From Parabacteroides chongii (lineage in GTDB: Bacteria; Bacteroidota; Bacteroidia; Bacteroidales; Tannerellaceae), in the NCBI RefSeq assembly GCF_029581355.1, contig NZ_CP120849.1, positions 5,798,501 through 5,862,500 on the forward strand: a stretch of 64,000 nucleotides of DNA, read 5' to 3'. A program made the translations under genes and the position numbers. The notes under the pieces were generated by a model. That model did no database searches and had not been told where the DNA came from. It saw only the letters and a list, made by a program, of their open reading frames with translations. Below are positions 4,218 through 31,425 of this stretch, in pieces (position 1 is the stretch's first letter; each line of letters starts with the position of its first letter).

Positions 4218-4868
4218 TTATTTACGGACTGTGATATGGAAACAGCCTTGCTTGCGTTCGTGCTTGATATAACAGCGTTCAGCCTTTCGCTGATCGCGGA
4301 GCACAGACGCAAGTACCATTTTCAGACGGTCGCTATCGATATTCAACGTATCCTTTTCGTCTATTTTGGTGTAACGAACCCAAGATATATCAAAAGTAGT
4401 ACCATAACGGTGAGCTGAATTCATGGAAGCGTTATAGTTACGTTTTCCTAATTTCTTCACGTCATCGACCGTACGGGTAACGCTTGTCACCTTTACTTTA
4501 TAGATGGAAGCATTCAGGTTATAAAGGGAATCCTGAAAATTACGTCCGATATCTTCCAGTAATGTAGCAGCTTCGGGGATGAGATAAGGGATGGAATGTT
4601 TCAATTCTTCCACTTCATAATAATCACAGGTCTTGATCTCTTTCATTTTTTTAGAGGCATGTTCGGCATCATCCCGGTTACTGATAGGTTCTATCCCTAT
4701 TTTCTGCGCTACCGCCAACTGAACATCATTCAAGTCATTAAAGTCCCGGTTATAGCTACCATTATACCAAATAGTTTTCAACTCACCCCGCTTTTCCTTG
4801 CAAGAAGAAAAAGCACAAACAGCCAGCAATACGGCCACCAAACTTATTGTATTTATAAATAATTTCAT
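4218..4868 (-). CDS. Lipoprotein with M15-like (DUF5715-type) peptidase signature
   Basis: 216 residues with a lipoprotein signal (lipobox FSSC, Cys23). The C-terminal half carries SAHRYGTTFDI with His153 and Asp160, and a late GCFHITV with His211. This is the spacing of the zinc ligands in M15 D-Ala-D-Ala carboxypeptidases (SxHxxGxxxD then H). The usual acid of the ExWH motif is not in place; Glu204 is the nearest candidate. It is therefore probably a periplasmic, membrane-tethered cell-wall peptidase, or an inactive relative that binds peptidoglycan. The residue pattern is seen directly; the function is inferred. It overlaps no other gene and converges on the thioredoxin. Confidence 0.7.
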   Translation of the reverse strand: MKLFINTISLVAVLLAVCAFSSCKEKRGELKTIWYNGSYNRDFNDLNDVQLAVAQKIGIEPISNRDDAEHASKKMKEIKTCDYYEVEELKHSIPYLIPEAATLLEDIGRNFQDSLYNLNASIYKVKVTSVTRTVDDVKKLGKRNYNASMNSAHRYGTTFDISWVRYTKIDEKDTLNIDSDRLKMVLASVLRDQRKAERCYIKHERKQGCFHITVRK

Positions 4869-4887
4869 CCTTTTTGATTTAGGGAAA

Positions 4888-4895
4888 CAAAAATA
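4888..4895 (-). promoter_or_regulatory. -7 box of the M15-like lipoprotein gene
   Basis: The minus strand reads TATTTTTG, 19 bp upstream of the start codon, matching TAnnTTTG. No -33 element recognised. Confidence 0.5.
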
Positions 4896-4938
4896 AGAAA
4901 AATAACAGACTTAACAGGATAAGAGAAAAAAGATTTCG

Positions 4939-4946
4939 TACTTTTG
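4939..4946 (+). promoter_or_regulatory. -7 box of the toxin-antitoxin operon
   Basis: TACTTTTG matches TAnnTTTG and ends 22 bp before the antitoxin ATG. It is the only promoter-like element ahead of both genes. Confidence 0.55.
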
Positions 4947-4968
4947 TAAACAGCATAAATAAAAGAAT

Positions 4969-5223
4969 ATGGATATGAGTACTTTAGAACTAAGACTTTC
5001 ACTGATTGAACAATTGACTCAAATCGATGATGAGCAGTTGTTGCACAAGATCAAAAATCTTATCAGCCAGCACACAGGCAAGAAAGCCGAACGCCTGCCG
5101 GCACAAATGACGGTAGATGAGCTGAAAGAGGTGTTGAAGAAATCTATAGAAGAATCCAAACAAGGATTAGGCATGACTTCCGATGAATTACGAAAAAGAC
5201 ATCCGTTATGCCAACAAGATTAA
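4969..5223 (+). CDS. Putative antitoxin of a type II toxin-antitoxin pair
   Basis: 84 residues, highly charged and helical, with no recognisable DNA-binding motif in the N-terminal part (STLELRLSLIEQLTQIDDEQ). A basic-to-acidic C-terminal helix could wrap the toxin. The call comes mainly from context. The downstream ParE/RelE-like gene starts inside this gene with a 16-bp overlap, the usual antitoxin-first arrangement. A second in-frame ATG at 4975 is an alternative start. It would neutralise the toxin and possibly repress the operon; neither can be shown from sequence alone. Confidence 0.65.
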   Translation: MDMSTLELRLSLIEQLTQIDDEQLLHKIKNLISQHTGKKAERLPAQMTVDELKEVLKKSIEESKQGLGMTSDELRKRHPLCQQD

Positions 5224-5522
5224 AGTGGTTGCCACAAGCTATTACCTTACTTGAAAATATTTACGGTTATTACAGTAAGAGGAGTGAACGCTCTGCCGTT
5301 CGCTTATATAACAGAATCATTGATTCTGCTGAACCGTTAAAGACATTCCCTCACGCAGGACCTCTCGAACCTTTATTAAAGGATTTTCCACAGAATTTTC
5401 ATTCGTTTGTTGTCGAAAAACATTATAAGCTGATCTATACAATCAGCCCCGATCTCATCGAAATACATGCCATATGGGATTGCAGGCAAGACGACTGGAA
5501 ACTTAAAGAAATGTTCCGATAG
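5208..5522 (+). CDS. RelE/ParE-superfamily toxin
   Basis: 104 residues. The pattern of an N-terminal helix pair (ITLLENIYGYYSKRSERSAVRLYNRI), a central FPHAGPLEPLL, then VEKHYKLIYTIS and a final IHAIWDCRQD fits the ParE/RelE fold. The IW(D/N)xRQ ending is characteristic. Members either cleave mRNA on the ribosome or poison DNA gyrase; the ParE-like ending suggests gyrase, but this is inference. It starts within the antitoxin gene, implying translational coupling. Nothing suggests decay: length and conserved positions are intact. Confidence 0.78.
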   Translation: MPTRLKWLPQAITLLENIYGYYSKRSERSAVRLYNRIIDSAEPLKTFPHAGPLEPLLKDFPQNFHSFVVEKHYKLIYTISPDLIEIHAIWDCRQDDWKLKEMFR

Positions 5523-5571
5523 TTATTCTCAAAAAAAAACCCGAATCTATTTAGGAGACAAAGAATATTAC

Positions 5572-5579
5572 TAATTTTG
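5572..5579 (+). promoter_or_regulatory. -7 box upstream of phoH
   Basis: TAATTTTG matches TAnnTTTG about 60 bp before phoH. It probably drives the phoH-purC-ubiE-aroE run, whose gaps are 6 to 19 bp. Confidence 0.55.
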
Positions 5580-5640
5580 CGTACCTAAATAATAGATGGG
5601 ATAAAAACATAAAAATTATAAGGAAAAAGGAAAAGAACGG

Positions 5641-6645
5641 ATGATAGAACGAATATATATTCTGGAAAGCGTAGACCCGGTTATTTTTTACGGAGTGAAC
5701 AATGCGAACATGCAGCTTATCAAAACACTGTTTCCCAAGCTTCGCATCGTTGCCCGAGGAAATGTGATGAAAGTAATCGGAGACGAAGATGAATCCGAAC
5801 TGTTCCTGAAGAAAATCCGGGAAGTCGAGAAATACTGCGAGGAGTTCAATTCCCTGACCGAAGATGTCATACTCGACATTATCAAAGGTAAAGCCCCGAC
5901 CGTCGTTAAACAGGAGAACCTGATCATTCATGGGATGAACGGTAAGGCGATCGTTGCCCGTACCGAAAACCAGCAATTACTCGTGAAAGCGTTCGAAGAG
6001 AACGACCTGGTATTTGCCACCGGTCCGGCTGGGACAGGCAAGACTTTCGTTGCGATCGCCCTGGCCGTAAAAGCATTAAAGAACAAAGAAATAAGGAAGA
6101 TCATCCTGAGCCGACCTGCCGTCGAAGCCGGCGAGAAGCTGGGATTCCTTCCGGGAGAGATGAAAGACAAGCTCGATCCGTATCTCCAGCCGTTGTACGA
6201 TGCCCTGCAGGATATGATACCGGGAGCGAAACTCAAAGAATATATGGAAAATAACGTGATTCAGATCGCTCCACTGGCTTTTATGCGCGGACGTACGCTG
6301 AACGATGCCGTTATTATCCTCGATGAAGCACAAAATACGACTACGCACCAGATCAAGATGTTCCTCACCCGCCTGGGTATGAATGCTAAAATGATCATTA
6401 CCGGTGACGTAACGCAGATCGACCTTCCTCCCACAGCGACTTCCGGACTCGTGCAGGCCATGCAGATACTGAAAGGCGTAAAAGGGATCGGCAAGATTGA
6501 ATTCGATAAGAAAGATATCGTACGCCATAAACTGGTGCAACGCATCGTCGAAGCTTACGATAAATTCGACGAAAAGAAAAAAGCCGCGCATGCCGCCGCT
6601 AAGACAACAACAGAAAAGAACAACAAACTATCAGAAAACAATTAA
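5641..6645 (+). CDS. phoH: PhoH family ATPase
   Basis: 334 residues, the usual PhoH-like length. A Walker A motif GPAGTGKT lies near residue 130 and a Walker B segment [10 protein letters not shown] near residue 225, followed by the sensor-like region [11 protein letters not shown]. An N-terminal KH-like or small RNA-binding region precedes the ATPase domain. PhoH-like proteins are cytoplasmic P-loop ATPases linked to RNA metabolism and often encoded beside ybeY. Here the neighbours are purC and other housekeeping genes instead. The lysine-rich C-terminal tail is likely disordered. Confidence 0.92.
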
Positions 6646-6658
6646 AAATAAATTGGTC

Positions 6659-7609
6659 ATGAAGAAGGCGTTAGTTAAAACAGATTACAATTTCCCGGGA
6701 CAAAAGAGTGTCTATCATGGTAAAGTACGCGACGTGTACAATATCAATGACGAAGTATTGGTGATGGTCGCAACCGACCGTATTTCAGCTTTCGACGTAG
6801 TATTGCCGGAAGGTATTCCTTACAAAGGCCAGATGTTGAACCAGATTGCTGCCAAATTCCTTGACGCGACCACCGACATTTGTCCGAACTGGAAAATGGC
6901 TTCACCCGACCCAATGGTTACCGTTGGTGTGCAGTGCGAAGGTTTCCCTGTTGAAATGATCGTACGCGGTTACCTTTGCGGTAGCGCATGGCGTGCTTAC
7001 AAAAGCGGTGTACGCGAAATCTGCGGTGTGAAACTGCCGGAAGGGATGCGCGAAAACCAGCGTTTCCCGGAACCTATCATCACCCCGACAACGAAAGCTG
7101 CCATCGGTGCTCACGACGAAGATATCTCCAAAGAAGAAATCCTGAAACAGGGACTTGTTTCTGAAGCCGACTACGCCGTTCTTGAAAAATATACAATGGA
7201 GCTCTTCAAACGTGGTACAGAGATTGCAGCCGGACGCGGACTGATCCTGGTCGATACCAAATATGAATTCGGTCACCGTGACGGTAAGATCTACCTGATC
7301 GATGAGATCCATACACCGGACTCTTCCCGTTATTTCTATTCAGAAGGTTACGAAGACCGTTTCGCCAAAGGTGAACCGCAGAAACAGCTGTCTAAAGAAT
7401 TCGTTCGCGAATGGTTGATGGATAACGGCTTCCAGGGTAAAGCAGGCCAGGTGGTTCCTGAAATGACTCCGGCTATCGTCGAAGGTATCAGCGACCGCTA
7501 CATCGAGCTGTTCGAACATATCACCGGCGAAAAATTCGTGAAAGGCGATACAGACGACTTGCTTGCACGTATCGAAAAGAACGTTACAGATTATCTGAAC
7601 AATAAATAA
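6659..7609 (+). CDS. purC: Phosphoribosylaminoimidazole-succinocarboxamide synthase (SAICAR synthetase)
   Basis: 316 residues from the ATG at 6659. An in-frame ATG at 6497 exists but lies inside phoH, so the downstream start is chosen; it yields the expected N-terminus with [16 protein letters not shown] motifs are clear: [10 protein letters not shown], the ATP-binding region [16 protein letters not shown], and [28 protein letters not shown]. The enzyme joins aspartate to CAIR with ATP in de novo purine synthesis. It is the longer bacterial form. The gene follows phoH by 13 bp and precedes ubiE by 6 bp, so co-transcription is likely. Confidence 0.96.
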
Positions 7610-7615
7610 GAATGT

Positions 7616-8410
7616 ATGAAGTACGGTTCGGAACAGATTTTACCTTACAACAGGGAAGAACAAAAGAGCACACAAGTCAGACGTATGTTCGACTCGATTG
7701 CAGGCACCTATGATCTGCTGAACCATACGCTCTCGTTCGGAATTGATAAAATATGGCGCAGGAAAGGTATCGCTTTCCTGCGTCCTTTTTCTCCGAAGTC
7801 GATACTGGATATCGCAACCGGAACAGGCGACCTGGCCATCTCCATGCAAAAGAAACTGAAGGCGGACCGGATCATCGGCGCCGACATTTCGGAAGGTATG
7901 ATGCAGGTCGGACGTGAGAAAGTAGCCCGTGCCGGTCTTTCGGAGCATATCTCTTTCGAACAACAAGACTGTACGGCGCTTACTTATCCGGACAACTCGT
8001 TCGATGCCGTTACTGCCGCATTCGGAGTACGTAACTTTGAAAATATAGAACAAGGGATAGCAGAGATGTTCAGGGTCCTGAAACCCGGCGGCCATCTCAT
8101 GATCCTGGAGCTTTCCACCCCGGAACATTTTCCGATGAAACAGCTCTACCCTATTTATTCAAAGACGATTATTCCATTTATAGGCCGGTTGTTCTCAAAA
8201 GAAAAAGCGGCATACAGTTATTTGCCGGAATCCATCAAGGTCGTTCCTCAAGGAAAGGTTATGGAAGAACTACTCGCCCGTCAAGGTTTTACACAGGCGA
8301 AAGCACGCACCTTTACCTTTGGAATTTGTTCATTATATACAGCCTGTAAGGACAGTTCGCCCAGTAAGGGCAGTAGTAAGGGCAGTTCGCGAACTGCCCC
8401 TACAATTTAA
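7616..8410 (+). CDS. ubiE: Demethylmenaquinone methyltransferase (UbiE/MenG family) with extended C-terminus
   Basis: 264 residues. Class I methyltransferase motifs are present: [13 protein letters not shown] (SAM binding), [13 protein letters not shown] and [25 protein letters not shown], which is the UbiE/MenG signature. In a menaquinone-using anaerobe the product makes menaquinone from demethylmenaquinone, so menG is the better functional name. The conserved domain ends with [13 protein letters not shown]. The last 18 or so residues (Ser, Gly and Lys rich) are translated from a REP-like palindrome, and the stop codon falls just after it. The tail is unlikely to matter for catalysis. Confidence 0.93.
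8376..8403. repeat. REP-like palindrome, TTCGCGAA core, inside the 3' end of ubiE
   Basis: A 28-bp inverted repeat with one mismatched pair; its inner 20 bp, GGGCAGTTCGCGAACTGCCC, are a perfect palindrome. A partial upstream copy (GACAGTTCGCC near 8351) suggests tandem growth. It shares the TTCGCGAA core and GGGC/GCCC arms with the element at 36571-36608. It lies between co-directional genes and encodes the last residues of ubiE. RNA from it would form a strong hairpin just before aroE. Confidence 0.85.
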
Positions 8411-8429
8411 ACATAAAAAGAAGAAGGTT

Positions 8430-9173
8430 ATGCAGAAATATGGTTTATTGGGATATCCACTCGGGCATTCATTTTCCAAAACTTATTTCAACCAGAAGTT
8501 TGAGGCGGAAAAGATAGATGCTCAATATGTAAATTTCGAGATTCCGAACATCAAAGAGATAAAGAATGTTCTGAAAGAGAATCCCGAATTAAAAGGTTTG
8601 AACGTTACGATCCCTTATAAAGAACAGGTGATCCCTTATCTGGACGAGCTGGATGAAGATGCACGCCTGATCGGTGCCGTCAACGTGATCAAGTTTACAA
8701 AAGGTCTTTTCGGAAGAACAAAGCTGATCGGTTACAATTCCGATATCATCGGTTTCAAGCAATCGATCGAACCTTTCCTGAACGAAACGCACCGGAAAGC
8801 CCTGATCCTCGGAACAGGCGGAGCTTCAAAGGCAGTCTTCCAGGGATTGAAACAACTGGGAGTCGGCGCTACTTTAGTCTCACGCAAGCCGAAAGAATTC
8901 TGCATTACCTATGAGGAGATCACAGCCAAAACGATGGAACAATACACGGTTATTGTCAATACAACTCCGCTCGGAATGTTCCCTAATATCAATGATTGCC
9001 CTGATATTCCTTACGATCTGCTCACCCCTGACCATCTGTTATACGACCTGCTGTATAATCCGGATGAGACACTTTTCATGAAGAAAGGAAAAGAAAAAGG
9101 AGCTGTCGTCAAAAACGGACTTGAGATGCTGTTGTTGCAGGCATTTGCCGGCTGGGAAATCTGGCAGAAATAA
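8430..9173 (+). CDS. aroE: Shikimate dehydrogenase
   Basis: 247 residues from the ATG at 8430, preceded by AAGAAGG. A longer frame from 8319 would overlap ubiE by 92 bp and adds non-family sequence, so it is rejected. Conserved features include LLGYPLGHSFSKTYFN at the N-terminus, the catalytic-lysine segment NVTIPYKEQV, NSDIIGF with the substrate aspartate, and the nucleotide loop GTGGASKAV. It reduces 3-dehydroshikimate with NADPH in aromatic amino acid and menaquinone precursor synthesis. At about 247 residues it is slightly shorter than the E. coli enzyme, as usual in Bacteroidetes. Confidence 0.95.
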   Translation: MQKYGLLGYPLGHSFSKTYFNQKFEAEKIDAQYVNFEIPNIKEIKNVLKENPELKGLNVTIPYKEQVIPYLDELDEDARLIGAVNVIKFTKGLFGRTKLIGYNSDIIGFKQSIEPFLNETHRKALILGTGGASKAVFQGLKQLGVGATLVSRKPKEFCITYEEITAKTMEQYTVIVNTTPLGMFPNINDCPDIPYDLLTPDHLLYDLLYNPDETLFMKKGKEKGAVVKNGLEMLLLQAFAGWEIWQK

Positions 9174-21770: not shown

Positions 21771-23654
21771 TTAAGCTAATTCACTTAGCTCCAGCCAACG
21801 CATTGTCTTTTCGTCGATTTCTTCAATTACTTTCGCAATACGTTCCGACTTAGTCATCAATTCATCGTTGCTAAGAGTTCCGCTGCTCATTGCCGTTTCC
21901 AGTTCAGTTTTTTCGGCTTCAAGCTGCGGTATTTCCGCTTCCAGAGCTTCGAACTCCTTCCGCTCCTTGAAAGTAAGTTTCTTTTTCTGCTCAGGCTGCG
22001 GACGGTTATTCTTTTCAGGAGCCGGTGTTTGTTTGGGCTGACGGGCTGCTTCAGCCTCTTTCTCCAACTGATCCTGCACCTCTTTCCAGTCACGGTATTG
22101 GGTATAATTACCAGGGAAATCCTTCAAATCGGCATTACCACGGAATACTAACAAGTGATCGACTACTTTATCCATAAAGTAACGGTCGTGCGAAACAACG
22201 ATTACACAACCCTTAAAGTTTCGCAGGTACTCTTCCAATACATTCAGGGTCACGATATCCAGATCATTGGTCGGCTCATCCAGTACCAGGAAGTTCGGGT
22301 TGCGCATCAGGACGGTACACAGATATAAACGACGTTTTTCTCCGCCACTCAGCTTATAGACATAGCTATGCTGCTTTTCGGGAGTGAACAGGAAATAATT
22401 CAGAAATTGGGAAACACCCAACTTCTTACCGTCCCCAAGATCGACATATTCGGCTATATCCTGCACGACATCGATCACCTTCATCTGCTCGTCAAACTGC
22501 AGACCATCCTGACTGTAATAGCCGAAACGGACTGTTTCGCCGACATCGAAGCGTCCGCTATCCGGTTCCACTTCGCCCATCAGCATTTTAATAAAGGTAG
22601 ACTTCCCTGTTCCGTTGTTACCTACGATACCCATCTTTTCGTAACGGGCAAAAATATAATTGAAATCTTCTACAATCTTGATACTGCCGAAGCTTTTCGT
22701 AACATGCTCCGCTTCAAATATTTTCGATCCGATATAGGATGCTTTCACATCCAGATTCACATTACCGTTGTCCCGTTGCTGCTTGGCTTTCTTTTCCAGC
22801 TCATAAAAAGCATCGATACGGTATTTAGCTTTCGTACCGCGTGCCTGCGGCTGACGACGCATCCATTCCAACTCTTTCCTTAACAGGTTGTTGGCACGTT
22901 CCACCTCTGTGTTCATCGTCTCCATCCGTTCCTGACGTTTTTCCAGATAATAGCTGTAATTACCTTTATACTGGTAAATTTGCTGACGGTCTATTTCGAT
23001 AATCTCGCTGCAGACACGATCCAGGAAATAACGGTCGTGTGTAACCATCAGGATACTGATATTGGCACGGCTCAGGTAACCTTCCAGCCATTCGGTCATT
23101 TCCAGGTCGAGGTGGTTGGTCGGCTCATCGAGAATGATCAGTTCGGGGTCGGTGATCAGAACGTTAGCCAATGCCACACGTTTCAACTGCCCACCGGACA
23201 GATGTTCTACTTTCTGATCGAAGTTTGTGATCTTCAACTGCGAAAGGATCTGTTTGGCCCGTTGTTCATAATCCCAGGCTTTCAGGTTATCCATACGCAT
23301 CAGGATATCCTCCAGGTTGGAATGATCATCGCTGGCCATAGCTTCTTCATACTCGGCAATCAGGCGAACCGTCTCATTGGGAGAATAGAAACAAGCCTGC
23401 AGCACAGTCAACCCTTCCGGATAAACAGGTGTCTGCTCCAGATAACCGACACGCAGGTCGTTGCGAAACACAACTGCCCCATTATCATAATCCTCCTTTC
23501 CGGCAATGATATTCAGTAAAGTTGTTTTACCTGTACCGTTCTTTGCAATAAGGCCCACTTTCTGACCTTGTGCAATACCAAATGTAATATCCTCAAAAAG
23601 AACCAAATCGCCGAAGCTTTTGGTCAGTCCGTCTATCTGTAAATAACTGATCAT
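21771..23654 (-). CDS. ABC-F family ATPase (Uup-like)
   Basis: 627 residues with two ABC domains and no membrane segment. Walker A motifs are AKNGTGKTT (about residue 38) and GNNGTGKST (about 345). Signatures are LSGGQLKRVALA and LSGGEKRRLYLC, and the Walker B boxes end in LDEPTNHLD and LDEPTNDLD. The linker is charged (KGNYSYYLEKRQERMETM), and the C-terminus forms a coiled coil rich in Glu and Leu, as in Uup. ABC-F proteins act on the ribosome or on branched DNA in the cytoplasm. Known resistance-type members differ in the linker, so housekeeping Uup function is preferred. Confidence 0.92.
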   Translation of the reverse strand: MISYLQIDGLTKSFGDLVLFEDITFGIAQGQKVGLIAKNGTGKTTLLNIIAGKEDYDNGAVVFRNDLRVGYLEQTPVYPEGLTVLQACFYSPNETVRLIAEYEEAMASDDHSNLEDILMRMDNLKAWDYEQRAKQILSQLKITNFDQKVEHLSGGQLKRVALANVLITDPELIILDEPTNHLDLEMTEWLEGYLSRANISILMVTHDRYFLDRVCSEIIEIDRQQIYQYKGNYSYYLEKRQERMETMNTEVERANNLLRKELEWMRRQPQARGTKAKYRIDAFYELEKKAKQQRDNGNVNLDVKASYIGSKIFEAEHVTKSFGSIKIVEDFNYIFARYEKMGIVGNNGTGKSTFIKMLMGEVEPDSGRFDVGETVRFGYYSQDGLQFDEQMKVIDVVQDIAEYVDLGDGKKLGVSQFLNYFLFTPEKQHSYVYKLSGGEKRRLYLCTVLMRNPNFLVLDEPTNDLDIVTLNVLEEYLRNFKGCVIVVSHDRYFMDKVVDHLLVFRGNADLKDFPGNYTQYRDWKEVQDQLEKEAEAARQPKQTPAPEKNNRPQPEQKKKLTFKERKEFEALEAEIPQLEAEKTELETAMSSGTLSNDELMTKSERIAKVIEEIDEKTMRWLELSELA

Positions 23655-23968
23655 ATTGCCTTGTGTACTTTACTTTGAATGGCAAAGATACAAAAATTCG
23701 GTGGAGAGGAGCTAATAATACGTAACAGTCTATTCTTGTAAAAACCAACCATTCCCTAAAAGTTACAGAATTCTTTACAGAAGTTCAATGTTAGAAAAAA
23801 CTGACCCATTACATAAATATTCATCTAAAAAGAAGTTACGCAATCAGATTTTAATGCTAATTTCGTCACTGTATACTGATGTTTTCTAACCAACGCATAT
23901 CTTTATAGATTACAATCGGTTAATTTTCATAACATTCACACTGCTAACTACAGATTTTAAATATAATT
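23655..23968. other. Gene-free border between core genome and restriction island
   Basis: 314 bp. The ABC-F promoter is at its left end. From about 23,700 the sequence becomes A+T-rich and stays so to about 30,950. A weak -7-like TATCTTTA (23898-23905) is the only promoter candidate for the restriction gene. I see no attachment-site duplication, RNA gene or short reading frame. Confidence 0.55.
23683..23690 (-). promoter_or_regulatory. -7 box of the ABC-F gene
   Basis: The minus strand reads TATCTTTG, 28 bp upstream of the ATG, matching TAnnTTTG. Confidence 0.55.
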
Positions 23969-26900
23969 ATGGGACAATTAAAGCCAACTCAAGTACTAAA
24001 TAAAGCCTATAGACAAGTTACTATAGAAACAGCGAAGTTCAACCATTTTAAGAATGCCTTACAAATACTATTAGAAAATGTTTCAGATGGACAAAGAGAA
24101 GAAACTCAAAAAGAACATTTAAGAAATTTTCTTAGTGACACATTCTATAAATCCTACTATATAGCTCCAGAGGAAGATATTGATTTAGCTATTAGACTAG
24201 ATAAGACTACAAAATCAAATATTGGATTATTGATAGAAGTCAAAAGTACAACAAATAAAAGCGAAATGATTTCTGTCGACAATTTAAATAAAAAGGCACT
24301 TCAAGAACTTTTACTCTATTACTTAAAAGAGAGAATAACTAAAAAAAATACAGATATCAAATACCTAATTACCACCAACATACATGAATTTTTCATTTTC
24401 GATGCACAGGAATTTGAACAAAAGTTCTATCAAAACAAGAAGTTGCGGAAAGAGTTCCAGGACTTTCAGGATGGAAGAAAGACAAGTAGCAAAACAGATT
24501 TTTTCTATGCAGAGATTGCCTCTCCTTTCATTGAGGAAGTACAGGAAAGTCTCGAATATACTTATTTCGATATATATGACTATCGTAAATCTCTTAACAA
24601 CAAGAATGTCTCCTCTAAAAAACTAATAGAACTATATAAAGTATTCAGTGATACCCATTTGTTAAAACTTCCTTTTCAAAATGATAGCAATTCTTTAAAC
24701 AAAAGTTTTTATTCTGAATTACTACACATTATAGGTATAGAAGAACAGAAAGAGGGAAGTAAAACTGTAATAGTGCGTAAAACTACAGAAAAAAGAAATG
24801 AAGCTTCATTATTGGAAAACACAATTAACCAACTTGATGCTGAAGAGTGTTTGCGTAAAGTTCCTAACACAGCAATATATGGGAGTACATATGACGAACG
24901 ACTTTTCAATGTAGCAATGGAATTGTGTATCACATGGATCAATAGGATTCTGTTTTTGAAACTTTTAGAAGCACAATTATTAAAGTATCACAACGGAAAA
25001 CTTTGCTACAAATTTCTCACTAATAAAAAGATACGTGATTTTGACGATTTAAACACACTTTTCTTCCAGGTATTAGCTCGTGATTTCAATCATAGAACAT
25101 CATCCATATTAAAAGACTTTGAACATGTTCCTTATTTGAACAGTTCTCTTTTTGAAGTGACCGACCTTGAAAGTGATACTATTAAAATCAATAGTCTATC
25201 CCAACGTGAAGAGCTACCATTGTTATCAAATAGTATTTTAAGAAACAAGAAAAATAATCTTCGTGTCAACAGTTTGCCTACATTAGAATATTTGTTTGCT
25301 TTTTTGGATGCATATAATTTTGCAAGCGAGGGAAGCGAAGAGATCCAGGAAGAAGCCAAAACGTTAATTAACGCTTCGGTTCTTGGGCTTATCTTTGAAA
25401 AAATCAACGGCCATAAAGAGGGGGCAGTATTTACTCCTGGTTTCATCACGATGTACATGTGTCGTGAATCAATCCTGAAAACAGTATTGCAAAAGTTCAA
25501 TCGCTTTTATGGTTGGAACTGTTCTTCAACCACAGAATTGTATAATAAAATAGACGATATAGCCAAAGCAAATGAATTGATTAATAGCATTAAGATTTGC
25601 GATCCCGCTGTCGGTTCAGGACATTTTCTTGTTTCTGCACTGAACGAGTTAATACTTTTGAAATATGAATTGGGGATATTAGTTGATGCCAATGGTAAGC
25701 GCATAAAAGGATCAGATTATACACTATCCATTGAGAATGACGAACTTATTATAACAGATGCCGACAATAACCTTTTTGCATATAATCCTTTAAATAAAGA
25801 AAGCTATCGTATGCAAGAAACATTGTTTCACGAAAAAAAGCAGATTATAGAGAATTGTCTGTTTGGTGTCGATATTAATCCTAATTCTGTAAAAATATGT
25901 CGCCTTCGCCTATGGATTGAATTACTTAAGAATGCCTATTACACAGCTGAGAGTAATTTTCGCCATTTGGAAACTTTACCTAATATTGACATAAATATAA
26001 AACAAGGAAACTCTTTATTACATCGTTTTAATCTCCAAGACAGCATTAAGTCCATTTTAAAAGAAACGGGGATTAATATTGAGCAATATAAAAATGCAGT
26101 CACTAAATATAAGAATGCTCAAGACAAGGGTGAAAAGAGAGAATTGGAATCCTTGATATCAACAATTAAATCAAAGCTAAAAACAGAAATAGGACAAAAA
26201 GAACCTAAACGGATAAAATTGAATAAGTACCGTGCTGAGTTAATAGATTTGCAAGCCCCTCAGTTATTTGAATTTACAAAGAAAGAGCAAAAGGAAAGAC
26301 AAAAGCAAATTGAAGTTTTAAATAAAGAAACAAAAAAATTAGAAGAATATTTCAAAGAAGTTCGTTCTAACAAAATGTATTTAGGTGCCTTTGAATGGCG
26401 TATTGAATTTCCAGAAGTATTAGATGAAGAGGGGAATTTTATAGGTTTCGATTGTATTATTGGAAATCCTCCATATATTCAGTTACAATCTATGGGAGAT
26501 GACGCGGATATACTAGAACAGATGGAATACGAAACATATGCTCGCACTGGAGACATTTATTGTTTATTCTATGAACAAGGGATGAACGTTTTAAAAGAAG
26601 CAGGTTGTTTATGCTACATTACCTCAAATAAATGGATGAGGGCTAGTTATGGTGAAAATCTACGTAATTATTTTGCAACGAAAACAAATCCGATTTTATT
26701 AGTCGATTTTGCAGGTGTTAAAATATTTGATTCAGCAACAGTAGAAACAAATATTCTTTTAATCAATAAAGAGGTTAATAGACATAGTACATTAGCCTGT
26801 ACATTTCCCAATGCTAATGGATTAAATAAAATGAGCGTTTTTGTTCAGCAATGCGGGTCGTTATGCGAGTTCAGTAGTTCTGATTCGTGGGTTATATTAT

Positions 26901-27757
26901 CGCCAATAGAGCAAAGCATTAAACGAAAAATAGAAGCTGTCGGTACTCCTCTCAAGGATTGGGATATAAATATCTATCGTGGTGTGCTTACTGGTTATAA
27001 TGAAGCATTCATCATTTCCACAGAGAAACGTGATGAGATTCTTGCCAACTGTCATACGGACGAGGAACGTTCCAGAACGGCTGAACTTATACGACCGATT
27101 CTTCGAGGCCGGGATATAAAGAGATATGGCTATGAGTGGGCAAATTTGTGGTTAATCTGGATTCCTTGGCATTTTCCATTGCACTTAGATAGTACAATTG
27201 AAGGTGCTTCAAAAAAAGCAGAGATGGAGTTTGAAAAACAATACTCTGCTGTGTATAATCATCTGTTTGAATATAAAGAGCCTTTATCAAAACGTAACAA
27301 AGCAGAAACAGGAATTCGTTACGAATGGTATGCATTACAAAGATGGGGTTCTAAATATTGGGAGGATTTTTTGCAGCCAAAAATTGTATGGAAGAGAGTT
27401 GGTTCAATATTACGTTTTTCTTACAATGAAAATGGAGCAATGGCATTGGATAGTACTTGTTTTGCAACGGGAAAAGACATTAAATTTCTAGTGGGTATTC
27501 TTAATTCAAAAATGGGACATTATTTACTAAAGGATGCACCTAAAACAGGTACTGGAGATTTGCTTATAAGTGTTCAGGCTGTGGAACCATTAAAGATTCC
27601 AATCCTTAATAAAGGTATAAAGGAGGAACTAGAAGTCCTATTAAATAAACAATTATATTCTGTATCAAAAGAACGAGATAAAGAAATAAACCGTATAGTG
27701 TTCAAGCTATACGGTTTACTTGATGAAGAAATTATATTTATTGAAAATTCTCTATAA
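23969..27757 (+). CDS. Type IIG restriction-modification protein (Eco57I-like), expressed orientation of an invertible specificity domain
   Basis: 1262 residues. The N-terminus carries a PD-(D/E)xK nuclease pattern: EDIDLAIRL then GLLIEVKST. The central gamma-class N6-adenine methylase has motif I DPAVGSGHF (near residue 543) and motif IV IIGNPPYIQL (near 831). Residues 955-1262 form the target-recognition domain and lie on the invertible segment. This domain begins with MSVFVQQCGSLCEFSSSDSW, which is repeated exactly in the opposite-strand gene. It would methylate one adenine specificity and cut unmethylated DNA. Base composition is visibly A+T-richer than flanking genes, suggesting transfer. 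No frameshift is seen. The swap of residues 955 onward is inferred from the repeats. Confidence 0.9.
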   Translation: MGQLKPTQVLNKAYRQVTIETAKFNHFKNALQILLENVSDGQREETQKEHLRNFLSDTFYKSYYIAPEEDIDLAIRLDKTTKSNIGLLIEVKSTTNKSEMISVDNLNKKALQELLLYYLKERITKKNTDIKYLITTNIHEFFIFDAQEFEQKFYQNKKLRKEFQDFQDGRKTSSKTDFFYAEIASPFIEEVQESLEYTYFDIYDYRKSLNNKNVSSKKLIELYKVFSDTHLLKLPFQNDSNSLNKSFYSELLHIIGIEEQKEGSKTVIVRKTTEKRNEASLLENTINQLDAEECLRKVPNTAIYGSTYDERLFNVAMELCITWINRILFLKLLEAQLLKYHNGKLCYKFLTNKKIRDFDDLNTLFFQVLARDFNHRTSSILKDFEHVPYLNSSLFEVTDLESDTIKINSLSQREELPLLSNSILRNKKNNLRVNSLPTLEYLFAFLDAYNFASEGSEEIQEEAKTLINASVLGLIFEKINGHKEGAVFTPGFITMYMCRESILKTVLQKFNRFYGWNCSSTTELYNKIDDIAKANELINSIKICDPAVGSGHFLVSALNELILLKYELGILVDANGKRIKGSDYTLSIENDELIITDADNNLFAYNPLNKESYRMQETLFHEKKQIIENCLFGVDINPNSVKICRLRLWIELLKNAYYTAESNFRHLETLPNIDINIKQGNSLLHRFNLQDSIKSILKETGINIEQYKNAVTKYKNAQDKGEKRELESLISTIKSKLKTEIGQKEPKRIKLNKYRAELIDLQAPQLFEFTKKEQKERQKQIEVLNKETKKLEEYFKEVRSNKMYLGAFEWRIEFPEVLDEEGNFIGFDCIIGNPPYIQLQSMGDDADILEQMEYETYARTGDIYCLFYEQGMNVLKEAGCLCYITSNKWMRASYGENLRNYFATKTNPILLVDFAGVKIFDSATVETNILLINKEVNRHSTLACTFPNANGLNKMSVFVQQCGSLCEFSSSDSWVILSPIEQSIKRKIEAVGTPLKDWDINIYRGVLTGYNEAFIISTEKRDEILANCHTDEERSRTAELIRPILRGRDIKRYGYEWANLWLIWIPWHFPLHLDSTIEGASKKAEMEFEKQYSAVYNHLFEYKEPLSKRNKAETGIRYEWYALQRWGSKYWEDFLQPKIVWKRVGSILRFSYNENGAMALDSTCFATGKDIKFLVGILNSKMGHYLLKDAPKTGTGDLLISVQAVEPLKIPILNKGIKEELEVLLNKQLYSVSKERDKEINRIVFKLYGLLDEEIIFIENSL
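26829..26967 (+). repeat. Left copy of the 139-bp inverted repeat (crossover site)
   Basis: Identical, in inverted orientation, to 28489-28627. It encodes residues 955-1000 of the restriction protein, in frame from AAATGAGCG to GGATTGGGATAT. Identity stops abruptly at both ends. It is the probable site for invertase or homologous recombination. Confidence 0.92.
27050..27141 (+). repeat. Second inverted identity patch, 92 bp (left copy)
   Basis: Identical in inverted orientation to 28315-28406. It encodes CHTDEERSRTAELIRPILRG and the following residues through KRYGYEWA. It divides each recognition domain into two variable parts, one between the repeats and one after this patch. Confidence 0.88.
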
Positions 27758-28625
27758 AACTAATTTCTTCATCATTTAATCCATAGATATTATACATTAA
27801 ATTATTGCTATAATATTTAAACTCCCGAATAGTTATCTTGTTGTTTTTTAGTTTGTTGAAAACTGCAAGATGTTCATTTAGCTGTTCAATAGTTGGTTTA
27901 GCAACAATAAGTTGTTCTATAGTATATTTTTTCCATCTTATAGTACCTACTCCTGTTGTTGTTCCGACTTTTGAAAATAGCCATTCAGCTACTGAAGAGT
28001 TTAAAGCAGTCAAAAGGAACTCTATGTATTCTCCTCTCATATAGAAAGCTGTTGCCTCTGGCATGTATTTCCCCAAAAAATCAAAGGCAAACTTTGATTT
28101 GTCAGAAATTTCGCCCCATACAATTTTTGGCTGCAAAAAATCCTCCATATAAGCGCAGTTACGTAAATTATAAGGGGTATCTCCTTTGTCTGCACGTTTT
28201 GAAATTTTATCCCAATATTGGTCTAAATGAGCTTTAACCGCTGGAAAATCTTCAATATGAATCCGTTCAAATTTCCCCTTAACGCCATTGTGTGTGTTAA
28301 TTAACCATAGTTTAGCCCACTCATAGCCATATCTCTTTATATCCCGGCCTCGAAGAATCGGTCGTATAAGTTCAGCCGTTCTGGAACGTTCCTCGTCCGT
28401 ATGACAATTCGCCAATATCTCATCACGCTTTTCCGTGTTTATGATAAACGCATCGTTGAAACCAGTCTTAATCCCATAGTTTATTTGAATATCCCAATCC
28501 TTGAGAGGAGTACCGACAGCTTCTATTTTTCGTTTAATGCTTTGCTCTATTGGCGATAATATAACCCACGAATCAGAACTACTGAACTCGCATAACGACC
28601 CGCATTGCTGAACAAAAACGCTCAT
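27738..28625 (-). CDS. Silent alternative specificity domain of the type IIG system
   Basis: 295 residues, homologous only to the C-terminal part of the 1262-residue protein. The first 46 residues are identical (MSVFVQQCGSLCEFSSSDSW onward), a variable part follows, then the shared CHTDEERSRTAELIRPILRG, then a different C-terminal half. It lacks nuclease and methylase domains, so alone it is not an enzyme. Inversion between the 139-bp repeats would fuse it in frame to residue 954, giving a 1249-residue protein with new specificity. Its ATG overlaps the invertase stop (ATGA), so a free fragment could be made by translational coupling. Its 3' end overlaps the active gene by 20 bp. Confidence 0.88.
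   Translation of the reverse strand: MSVFVQQCGSLCEFSSSDSWVILSPIEQSIKRKIEAVGTPLKDWDIQINYGIKTGFNDAFIINTEKRDEILANCHTDEERSRTAELIRPILRGRDIKRYGYEWAKLWLINTHNGVKGKFERIHIEDFPAVKAHLDQYWDKISKRADKGDTPYNLRNCAYMEDFLQPKIVWGEISDKSKFAFDFLGKYMPEATAFYMRGEYIEFLLTALNSSVAEWLFSKVGTTTGVGTIRWKKYTIEQLIVAKPTIEQLNEHLAVFNKLKNNKITIREFKYYSNNLMYNIYGLNDEEISFIENFQ
28315..28406 (-). repeat. Second inverted identity patch, 92 bp (right copy)
   Basis: Exact inverted copy of 27050-27141 within the silent specificity domain. Confidence 0.88.
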
Positions 28626-28627
28626 TT
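28489..28627 (-). repeat. Right copy of the 139-bp inverted repeat (crossover site)
   Basis: Exact inverted copy of 26829-26967. Its outer end contains the last codon and stop of the invertase gene, so exchange leaves the invertase sequence unchanged. Confidence 0.92.
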
Positions 28628-29233
28628 ATATTCAACCAAAACATTCTTCAAAAATCGAGCAAGAGTATTTCTATCTACCTGACATATTTTCGCTATTTTT
28701 CGTTGAGAAACTCCTACTGCTAGTAATTCTTTTATTAATATTTTCTTTTCTGATAATTTATATTTATCAGGATCACTTCGTCGTCCCTTAGGTCGACCTA
28801 AGATTAGACCTTCCGATTTTTTTCGAGCCAAAGCTTCTTTTGTCCTCTGACTAATAAGATTGCGTTCTATTTCTGCCGATAATCCAAAAGCAAATGCTAA
28901 AACCTTACTTTGAATATCCTCTCCCAATCGATAATTATCTTTAATAGTCCACACTCGACATTCTTTCCCCATACAAACATTTAATATTTCCATGATCATA
29001 AACAAATTACGTCCCAAACGAGATAATTCCGCACATATAATCAAGTCATCCTTTTGAACACGTTTCAACAAATCTCCAAGCTCTCGTTTATTATAAGCTT
29101 TTGTTCCACTTATTGTTTCTTCTATCCAGCCATCGACACTTAATTGCTCACGCTTACAGAAATTATTAATTTCAAATCGCTGATTTTCTACTGTTTGTTT
29201 GTCACTACTAACTCTAATGTATCCGTATACCAT
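28622..29233 (-). CDS. Serine recombinase (resolvase/DNA invertase family)
   Basis: 203 residues, the size of Hin/Pin-type invertases. The catalytic serine is Ser9 in YGYIRVSSDKQ. The further active-site segment is AELSRLGRNLFMIMEIL, followed by the long E helix (AFGLSAEIERNLISQRTKEA) and the basic GRPKGRR hinge. A C-terminal helix-turn-helix reads VSQRKIAKICQVDRNTLARF. Such enzymes invert DNA between short sites, usually with an enhancer. Lying immediately beside the inverted specificity domains, it is the obvious switch for this system. Its stop overlaps the start of the silent domain by 4 bp. Confidence 0.93.
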   Translation of the reverse strand: MVYGYIRVSSDKQTVENQRFEINNFCKREQLSVDGWIEETISGTKAYNKRELGDLLKRVQKDDLIICAELSRLGRNLFMIMEILNVCMGKECRVWTIKDNYRLGEDIQSKVLAFAFGLSAEIERNLISQRTKEALARKKSEGLILGRPKGRRSDPDKYKLSEKKILIKELLAVGVSQRKIAKICQVDRNTLARFLKNVLVEYK

Positions 29234-29419: not shown

Positions 29420-30832
29420 TCAAATCAACCCTCTATCTTTTTTTATATGATACCACATTCCCTCTTTTGGAGAATCAGGCAACTTGGTCAAACGGTTTTG
29501 AATATATCTCAAATGAATTAAATTTAACTCCCGATTTACATTAACTAAGTATTCATCAAATTTATAATAAGCCGATATTGGTTTATGCCCTTTATCCAAA
29601 GCCCATACCAGAAAAGACTCAAACACCAACAAATCTTCAGTTTCCTGAGTCAGTTCTATTAATTCCATTCCTTCAACCTGTTGAGGAACATGAGCTTCCC
29701 GAATTATTCCATCCTGATCCATCGCGACAAACACTGGTTCTAGAGATTCACAACGTTTACGTTTTTTCTTTCCTTCAAGTGTCCATATTCTGCCTTGTTG
29801 ACAAAATCCATGTTCTAGCCAAAGCCCTGCATTATCTAAAACAAGACCTTCCTCTTTTCCTGGAGACGGACGCATACAACGACCGACTTGTTGTAAATAT
29901 AATGCCAGTGATTTTGTAGGACGGGCTAACTGTACTGCCTCACAATCAGGAACGTCAAATCCTTCCGATACAATATCAACATTACTCAAAACCAATGTTT
30001 CTCCTTTTCTAAATCGCTTTAGTATTTGTTCACGTTCCTTTTTGGACGTATTAGCATCAATATGTTCTGCGGCGATACCCTCCCGGCAATACTCTTCTAC
30101 TATTTGTTGACTATGCTCTATGTTTACCGCAAAAACAATCATCTTTTTACCATCCGCTCTTTTATGATAGCTCTCAACCAAATCAGCCATCAATTCTTTA
30201 TCTTGCATTAATTCTCCTAATTCATCCTGGGCATAATCATTCATCTTCACTTTTATAGAAGATAAATCAGGAGTAACACCTACAAAATGTTTTACCTTTA
30301 CCAAATAGCCATGCTCAACAAAATAACTCAATTGTCCACTATTAATAAGAGTATCAAATAAATCAGAAAAACCTTCTCCACTCATTCGGATAGGAGTAGC
30401 TGTTACACCTAAAAAACGAGCTTTCGGATAAATATCCCACAGCTTTTTATAAGTACTGGCTTTAGCATGATGACATTCATCTATAATAACTATGTCAGCA
30501 ACAGGATATTCTCTTTTTGACAAACTCTGAATAGTTGCAACCTGTACTTCTTTTGTCGCATCAGGTGGTATAGCTCCAGATATAATACCCGCATCTACAT
30601 CAAAGCAGAATAGACGTTCAACTATTTGCTCTACTAATTCTTTCCGATGAACGACTATCAACACTTTTTTTTCTTTCAAACGAGCACGACGCACTATCTC
30701 TGAAAAAACGGTAGTCTTCCCTGTTCCGGTTGGCATTTGAAATAAGACATTCATCAGATTTTGCGTAAGAGGATTCCACGCATCGAATATATCTCGTATG
30801 CCATTAGTTTGATATGGACGTAATTCAACCAA
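29420..30832 (-). CDS. SF2 DEAD/DEAH-type helicase of the restriction island
   Basis: 470 residues. Helicase motifs in order: LRPYQTNGI (Q-like), MPTGTGKTTVFSEIV (Walker A), VVHRKELVEQIV (Ia), IIDECHHA (Walker B), VTATPIR (III), SNVDIVSEGFDVPDCEAV (V) and QQVGRCMRPSPGK (VI). It resembles the ResIII group of translocases. The only start that keeps the first motif is TTG at 30832, with no ATG available upstream. It precedes the invertase on the same strand by 186 bp and shares the A+T-rich composition of the island. A role as DNA translocase partner of the type IIG enzyme is inferred; an unrelated repair role is possible. Confidence 0.85.
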   Translation of the reverse strand: MVELRPYQTNGIRDIFDAWNPLTQNLMNVLFQMPTGTGKTTVFSEIVRRARLKEKKVLIVVHRKELVEQIVERLFCFDVDAGIISGAIPPDATKEVQVATIQSLSKREYPVADIVIIDECHHAKASTYKKLWDIYPKARFLGVTATPIRMSGEGFSDLFDTLINSGQLSYFVEHGYLVKVKHFVGVTPDLSSIKVKMNDYAQDELGELMQDKELMADLVESYHKRADGKKMIVFAVNIEHSQQIVEEYCREGIAAEHIDANTSKKEREQILKRFRKGETLVLSNVDIVSEGFDVPDCEAVQLARPTKSLALYLQQVGRCMRPSPGKEEGLVLDNAGLWLEHGFCQQGRIWTLEGKKKRKRCESLEPVFVAMDQDGIIREAHVPQQVEGMELIELTQETEDLLVFESFLVWALDKGHKPISAYYKFDEYLVNVNRELNLIHLRYIQNRLTKLPDSPKEGMWYHIKKDRGLI

Positions 30833-30990: not shown

Positions 30991-31425
30991 ATGACACCTG
31001 AATCTAAATACGAATCCGTCCCTTATAGTTTTGCTTACTGCCTGAATGAGCAATGCAAGCACTCTACAAAGTGCCTGCGTTATCTCGTTTCGAAACAACT
31101 CACACCGGAACGGACTGTTTTCTCGATCGTAAACCCGGCTTGCACAACGCCACAAGCAGATAGCTGTCCCTTTTTCAAAGCAGATCAAAAGGACAGGTAC
31201 GCTTTGGGGATTACTTATTTACTGGACGATCTGCCTCATAACAAAGCTGTTGCCATCAAACGGGCAATGAATGCAAATTTTAGTAAAGGAACCCTTTACC
31301 GCATCCAGAAGAAAGAACGATTAATTACCCCTGACGAACAAAAGATCATTCGTATGATCTTTATGCGACAAGGTATCCATACCGATCCGCTTTTCGACCA
31401 ATATGTAGAGCAATACGATTGGTAA
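30991..31425 (+). CDS. DUF6078-like protein with cysteine-rich N-terminus
   Basis: 144 residues, no signal peptide. The N-terminal half has cysteines in YCLNEQCKHSTKCLRY and later CTTPQADSCPFF, arranged like a small metal-binding site. The C-terminal half (AIKRAMNANFSKGTLYRIQK and PDEQKIIRMIF) looks helical, possibly DNA-binding. I recognise it as a Bacteroidales family of unknown function. It lies just right of the restriction island, divergent from the helicase. A regulatory role is only a guess. Confidence 0.7.
   Translation: MTPESKYESVPYSFAYCLNEQCKHSTKCLRYLVSKQLTPERTVFSIVNPACTTPQADSCPFFKADQKDRYALGITYLLDDLPHNKAVAIKRAMNANFSKGTLYRIQKKERLITPDEQKIIRMIFMRQGIHTDPLFDQYVEQYDW

Follow-up and report, generated by a model that had tools for sequence, protein, structure and literature searches.

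A probable specificity switch at three sites inside a single-chain type IIG restriction-methylase gene with an adjacent Mpi-family invertase

The window, that is, the whole 64-kb stretch of Parabacteroides chongii DNA that was analyzed, contains three neighboring genes, which the first-pass annotation had located correctly. The largest of these (23969..27757, plus strand) is an open reading frame for a predicted type IIG restriction-methylase of 1262 residues. Pfam assigns it an Eco57I methylase and a TaqI_C specificity domain, with PF07669 and PF12950 above cut-off, and PDLC03612 spans residues 5-1260 (E 2.6e-293). The methylase motifs DPAVGSGHF and NPPY stand at residues 545 and 833, and the target-recognition domain, which we call the attached copy or copy A, runs from residue 955. 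This organization, in which Eco57I-type m6A methylase motifs and a C-terminal recognition domain share a single chain, points to a type IIG enzyme. No Pfam nuclease model matched the 1262-residue protein; from its motif, we read the segment DIDLAIR...LLIEVKS at residues 70-93, within DUF7149, as PD-(D/E)XK-like and hence as a putative nuclease. On the opposite strand, at 27738..28625, lies a second, silent target-recognition domain of 295 residues (copy B), in which Pfam finds TaqI_C alone, in keeping with the earlier description of this fragment as a recognition domain and nothing else. The serine DNA invertase reported beside the fragment is also present, as a 203-residue protein encoded at 28622..29233 on the minus strand, with an ATGA in which its stop codon and the copy B start codon overlap. 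Pfam assigns this protein to Resolvase, and the NCBIfam model for the master DNA invertase Mpi family (NF009949) matches it at 338.8 bits against a cut-off of 272. Together with the motifs YIRVSS at residue 5 and ELSRLGRN at residue 69, the family model above its cut-off and the catalytic serine motif support that this is an Mpi-family serine invertase. A helicase gene adjoins the invertase (29420-30832, minus strand); its product matches a RadD/YejH model far under cut-off (166 vs 720 bits) and the HsdR model TIGR00348 at 57.9, under the cut-off of 284.55. A DUF6078 protein (PF19555) is encoded near the locus at 30991-31425 on the plus strand.

Copies A and B are connected by exact inverted repeats at three places. 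The 139-bp block noted previously was confirmed at 26829..26967 (plus strand, attached copy) and 28489..28627 (minus strand, silent copy), where it sits in a 339-nt arm that is 88% complementary. The earlier account of the shared sequence had missed two further exact blocks, one of 92 bp (27050..27141, plus, and 28315..28406, minus) and one of 31 bp (27361..27391, plus, and 28116..28146, minus). All three stand in register between the two copies, which at a single locus is in our judgement far beyond chance. The 139-bp block holds site 1, GAGCGTTTTTGTTCAGCA, at 26833-26850 in the attached copy, with an inferred core dinucleotide GC at 26835-26836, and at 28606-28623 in the silent copy. The 92-bp block holds site 2, CTTATACGACCGATTCTTCG, with an inferred core CC at 27095-27096 and its counterpart at 28361-28360, and the 31-bp block holds site 3, GGAGGATTTTTTGCAGCCAAAAATTGTATGG, in both copies. 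With boundaries taken over from relatives, the domain in the window divides into module N from site 1 to site 2 (26829..27094 in copy A; 28362..28627 in copy B), module M from site 2 to site 3 (27095..27360; 28147..28361) and module C from site 3 to the stop codon (27361..27757; 27738..28146), those of copy A lying on the plus strand and those of copy B on the minus strand. Within module N, an 82-bp stretch between sites 1 and 2 differs between the copies (26968-27049, INIYRGVLTGYNEAF, vs 28407-28488, QINYGIKTGFNDAF). Two comparable versions of this stretch recur in Leyella-type proteins, and module N may therefore have two alleles. Elsewhere in the 64-kb window, matches to the patterns of site 1 and site 2 need 3 mismatches, and none with fewer was found.

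Inversion of 26829-28627 in silico keeps the reading frame, as had been claimed, and yields an open frame of 1249 residues, the first 1000 of which are identical to the native protein. Domain A moves to the invertase side as a 308-residue frame and the invertase remains intact. All eight N-M-C combinations that can be built in silico from the two copies are open frames of 1245-1266 residues; module M inverted in place gives a protein that stops at 1055. The window locus thus contains, on the opposite strand, an alternative specificity cassette that has inverted repeats at its bounds and comes into frame when inverted. Among the 120 listed of 7,983 database matches, none carries domain B attached at more than 82% identity, as the switched form of the window strain would.

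An inverted second domain accompanied by an invertase is also present in related genomes. A scan of named genomes covered 536 relatives, and in six of the best 80 that were kept (L001-L005 and L007) an opposite-strand copy of the domain lies directly downstream. These six come from Bacteroides ndongoniae, Epilithonimonas caeni, two Chryseobacterium, an Azovibrio MAG and a Bacteroidota MAG, and the layout is thus found in Bacteroidaceae, in Weeksellaceae and in an Azovibrio MAG. Five of the six loci have an Mpi-like invertase; in the remaining one, L002, the contig ends there first. L021, another of the best 80, has the invertase and lacks the inverted copy. In the family of B. ndongoniae (G001), 45 of 399 genomes match the enzyme at 1e-30, and 20 wider regions were taken from 17 of these 45. 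An array with modules on both strands plus an invertase is found in nine genomes, namely eight of the 17 and G001 itself. A piece of the enzyme or of the domain lies at or near a contig end in eight more (G082, G083, G099, G131, G146, G171, G184, and G318), with the invertase beside it in four of them (G082, G099, G131, and G184); one of the two G082 contigs continues into sequence that matches no module. Breakage of contigs inside the array is the effect that a rearranging region would have on short-read assembly. The wider region of G294 contains no inverted copy.

The array occurs on at least two enzyme backbones, one of ~1250 residues with DUF7149/DUF7814 and one of ~1110 residues with PF02384; L116 and L121 fall apart from the main group of the latter. 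On a tree of 55 core rows, the array label needs six changes, of which at least four are forced, and the array therefore appears to move or be lost repeatedly among cores, a call that long branches make unsure. A 5,978-bp type IIG stretch is 99.9% identical between L115 (Bacteroides finegoldii plasmid 58, NZ_OY725960.1) and L134 (genome G263), and thus spans a plasmid record and a chromosome contig. L134 has the site 1 and site 2 sequences, with neither an invertase nor a domain copy on the opposite strand in the ~5 kb that follow, and the L115 record ends just past the enzyme gene; the two are perhaps a frozen form that moves. Around site 1 of L112 (8392-10184), module N is split or duplicated in both copies.

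Comparison of the two copies within each locus placed site 1 at the start of the domain. In 13 rows with both copies of the site, among which are the close relatives L113 and L133, identity between the copies begins 0-4 bases before GA-GC. The exact repeat at site 1 is 23-25 bp in L003, L004, and L005, the Chryseobacterium and Azovibrio loci, a length that is short for homologous recombination, and the invertase is still adjacent in these loci. Database proteins that share a core led to the other two sites. In 7 of 19 core groups such proteins differ in blocks, the edges of which often fall at ELIRPILRGRD and WEDF; these edges are sites 2 and 3, which in the window fall within the 92-bp and 31-bp exact blocks. 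It is likely, judging from these alignments, that recombination occurs at three sites, the first where the domain starts and the others within it, so that the domain falls into the modules N, M and C.

Several relatives carry natural products of recombination at these sites. Apart from a 268-bp block, module M, which is inverted at 99.6% identity, L133 (G263) and the metagenome contig L113 align collinearly at 97-98.5% identity. The junctions read TACGA-CC-CAATA and GAATC-GG-AGGAT, where the parents have TACGA-CC-GATTC and TATTG-GG-AGGAT. The CC/GG dinucleotide is the sole sequence shared at these junctions, as would be expected of a serine recombinase. A junction of site 2 with site 3 like that of L113 is found in L119 (G123, 4512-9020), where the enzyme is cut short after module N, an OFF state, and where a multi-cassette array holds extra C and M modules in alternating orientation. 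In L122 (G394), the copy on the invertase side begins with a hybrid of two sites that have ~8 bp in common, its left half from site 1 and its right half from site 2. The database protein P0090 has attached to it the M and C modules that stand inverted in L122 (91% and 97% identity). Similarly, the C module of P0011 is identical to the one that stands inverted in L001; the P0011 group (P0003 and others) has this module attached, on enzymes 90-91% identical to that of L001. These comparisons indicate that rearranged forms exist in nature, in relatives of the window locus.

Codon choice at the sites hardly varies, whereas conserved codons elsewhere drift. Of 85 homologues without an array that were examined, 59 yielded the site 2 motif, 55 of them with Lys. 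Array-class loci have Arg there, encoded by CGA in 14 of 16 (19 examined) vs 12% among all Arg codons of these genes, and the Pro of the same site is CCG in 13 of 16 vs 14%. The Glu of site 3 is GAG in all 14 loci with an array (35% over these genes) vs one of seven without. The counts at sites 2 and 3 exclude five contig-broken loci as well as L115 and L134, both of which have CGACCGATT yet show no array; in a cruder earlier count, four domain copies classed as lacking an array had CGACCGATT too. In an alignment of 27 domain copies from 14 loci, 75 conserved columns are free to vary in codon. The mean normalised codon entropy is 0.35 in the 13 site columns vs 0.83 in the 62 other conserved columns, and a value as low occurred in 0 of 100,000 random draws, for site windows that had been picked with the breakpoints and repeats known and for rows related by descent. 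We read this as a strong indication of codon constraint on the sites, and not as a clean probability.

The extent of shuffling is best seen in database proteins that match residues 1-790 of P0131, a core for which three partial proteins and one entry bear the name Leyella stercorea. Among the 120 listed of 8,000 matches, 44 (P0131 included) are identical over these residues. All three modules are present in 85 of the 120, where 2 N, 3 M and 18 C clusters occur in 39 combinations; with only the 10 C clusters judged intact, 74 proteins among the 120 show 29 combinations, and 33 intact proteins with an identical core still show 17. Thirteen of the 120 listed are OFF forms that end alike ~12 residues past site 1. 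With the junction DNA deduced from the protein sequence, these endings would result from a crossover that fuses site 1, out of frame, with the right half of site 2; the first residue past the junction is Ser in nine and Thr in four, which fits the core dinucleotides GC and CC. Two more of the 120 listed fit site 1 joined to site 3. Some module combinations from metagenomes could reflect recombination between strains or chimeric assembly across conserved blocks, since it is at conserved blocks that the modules meet; L113, which has the clearest inversion, is a metagenome contig too. Assembly chimeras hardly explain the junctions between unlike sites, however, because those share 2 to ~8 bp. As the relatives shuffle the recognition domain in pieces, one gene can probably read several DNA targets. 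The first-pass annotation had proposed an invertible type IIG specificity locus with a single swap at residue 954. Its general claim holds up, given the anatomy, the invertase, the layout in relatives, the conserved sites, the natural inversion and the many domains per core, but the single swap is too simple because relatives also recombine at two further sites inside the domain.

Based on these comparisons of sequence, it seems very probable that the locus switches the specificity of a single-chain type IIG restriction-methylase from inside its gene, and probably does so as a small shufflon. In this reading, short sites within the coding sequence occur as inverted copies, between which the neighboring Mpi-family serine invertase recombines. 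Recombination at site 1 (GA-GC-GATT in most relatives, GA-GC-GTTT in the window) would exchange the whole domain, recombination at site 2 (CGA-CC-GATT) the M and C part, and recombination at site 3 (GGAGGATTTTT) the C part. The two copies in the window, A attached and B silent, would thereby give eight in-frame N-M-C combinations, and exchange between unlike sites would give a truncated enzyme (OFF). Each form would methylate and cut a different sequence, and a clonal population would carry mixed methylation together with mixed restriction. We infer the role of the invertase as the agent, the occurrence of switching in the window strain and its effects on methylation, restriction and gene expression.

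Published motifs from Prevotella intermedia may represent such switching. According to the part of the study available, strain 17F has a type IIG gene, Pin17FIII, at 22231-25584, followed at 25608-26525 by the opposite-strand gene Pin17FORF9595, which has 306 codons with the stop and is termed a type IIG protein too (PMC5608340). This arrangement of an enzyme gene and an opposite-strand gene is its likeness to the window, and to it the Prevotella case adds several related motifs. Strain 17F shows GGYGAB, GGNYAG and CCNYAG. Of these, GGYGAB was obtained from the cloned enzyme by itself and was also the sole motif with both genes present; no motif came from the fragment gene by itself (PMC5608340). 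GGNYAG and CCNYAG were left without an assigned gene, for which the authors considered a combination of genes, perhaps with the upstream helicase, and inversion at the locus is not proposed in the available part of the paper (PMC5608340). The P. intermedia locus is said to have a helicase upstream, and in the window a helicase gene adjoins the invertase. Pairing GG or CC with YGAB or NYAG allows four motifs, and the strain shows three of them. A fixed clone with one motif, and a population with those of its recombinations, is what inversion of the M or C module predicts. The additional motifs look like products of shuffling at a locus of the same layout, one that is known from its gene coordinates. 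The Rikenella motifs CCGACY, CCRGAG and SCCAAB, as quoted in the available part of the same study, form a less clean set of half-combinations (PMC5608340).

With moderate confidence, we extend this to the hypothesis that the locus is a combinatorial specificity generator, in which the serine invertase shuffles the N, M and C sub-domains that make up a single recognition domain, acting at three short sites; the DNA sequence of these sites would be kept within the reading frame even at an amino-acid cost (Lys to Arg). M and C would read different halves of the target and the half-specificities would combine freely, as GG/CC with YGAB/NYAG may do in Prevotella. Exchanges between unlike sites would represent a programmed OFF state, and the whole array would move between type IIG backbones.

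A simpler alternative is a two-state switch, in which the invertase acts at site 1 only, sites 2 and 3 are conserved protein motifs and the mosaics among relatives stem from ordinary homologous recombination between strains. Site 1 alone does account for the layout in the window, and residues encoded by the blocks at sites 2 and 3 are, in the alignment, conserved across the domain family. Nevertheless, the synonymous codons at these two sites are nearly frozen, and loci with arrays have Arg CGA where homologues without them have Lys. Moreover, site 2 is joined to site 3 in L113, where the junction shares 2 bp, and in L119, and homologous recombination does not make such junctions; in L122, site 1 is joined to site 2 with ~8 bp in common. 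We consider the two-state switch unlikely.

Still less probable, in our view, is that RecA-dependent inversion or gene conversion operates between the identical blocks and that the invertase works elsewhere. The crossover in L113 with its 2 shared bp argues against this, as do the 23-25 bp exact repeats of the Chryseobacterium and Azovibrio loci, beside which the invertase is still found, and the absence from the rest of the window of matches to either site 1 or site 2 at under 3 mismatches. In its favor, the blocks of 139, 92 and 31 bp in the window are long enough for homologous recombination, and the Mpi invertase of Bacteroides fragilis acts at distant promoters. Most improbable is a reading of the opposite-strand fragment as the decayed remnant of a partial duplication, or as a half-subunit translated on its own to act in trans. 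The overlap of its start with the invertase stop (ATGA) means that it could be translated, but the fragment is open and in frame at the site, and the pair recurs with the invertase across genera. In P. intermedia, as reported in the available part of the study, the fragment alone gave no motif and with the enzyme nothing beyond the motif of the enzyme (PMC5608340).

If the locus is indeed a specificity switch driven by the adjacent invertase, a single restriction-methylase could change its specificity quickly and among many combinations, with consequences for phage defence, gene uptake and possibly gene expression. It would also offer a testable explanation for published methylation motifs that have no assigned enzyme, and its naturally interchangeable recognition modules could be used to assign the bases of a target to the parts of a type IIG domain that read them.

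Known systems share individual features with this locus. In pglX (BREX) inversions, the C-terminal part of a single-chain methylase is swapped by inversion; we reject BREX PglX as an identification here, the best NCBIfam PglX score being 81.5 bits vs a cut-off of 500. Mpi of B. fragilis, which controls invertible promoters at many places, belongs to the same invertase family (NF009949), but it flips promoters whereas the invertase of the window would flip coding modules at a local array. A phase-variable type IIG enzyme of Campylobacter jejuni, reportedly the subject of work by Anjum et al. in 2016, is said to turn ON and OFF by a repeat tract; it phase-varies too, although not by domain inversion. 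Our literature search turned up no account of a type IIG switch that is driven by an invertase. Inverting type I hsdS loci are described for S. pneumoniae, S. suis and E. faecalis in the available part of PMC7394358. Such loci are alike in their silent inverted specificity cassettes, in repeats before and between recognition modules, in a recombinase gene within the locus and in combinatorial alleles, and they differ in that HsdS, as this source presents it, is a separate subunit with two recognition domains (PMC7394358). In the window, by contrast, it is the C-terminal domain of a single-chain, putative nuclease-methylase that is split, at three sites in the coding sequence and with an Mpi-family invertase adjacent. 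No hsdM or hsdS model is among the families listed for the five proteins tested, and we reject a type I hsdS shufflon because methylase and specificity domain form one chain. We conclude that the locus is probably an analogue of the type I hsdS shufflon, built into a single chain and with three sites; it would work like such a shufflon and is not one.
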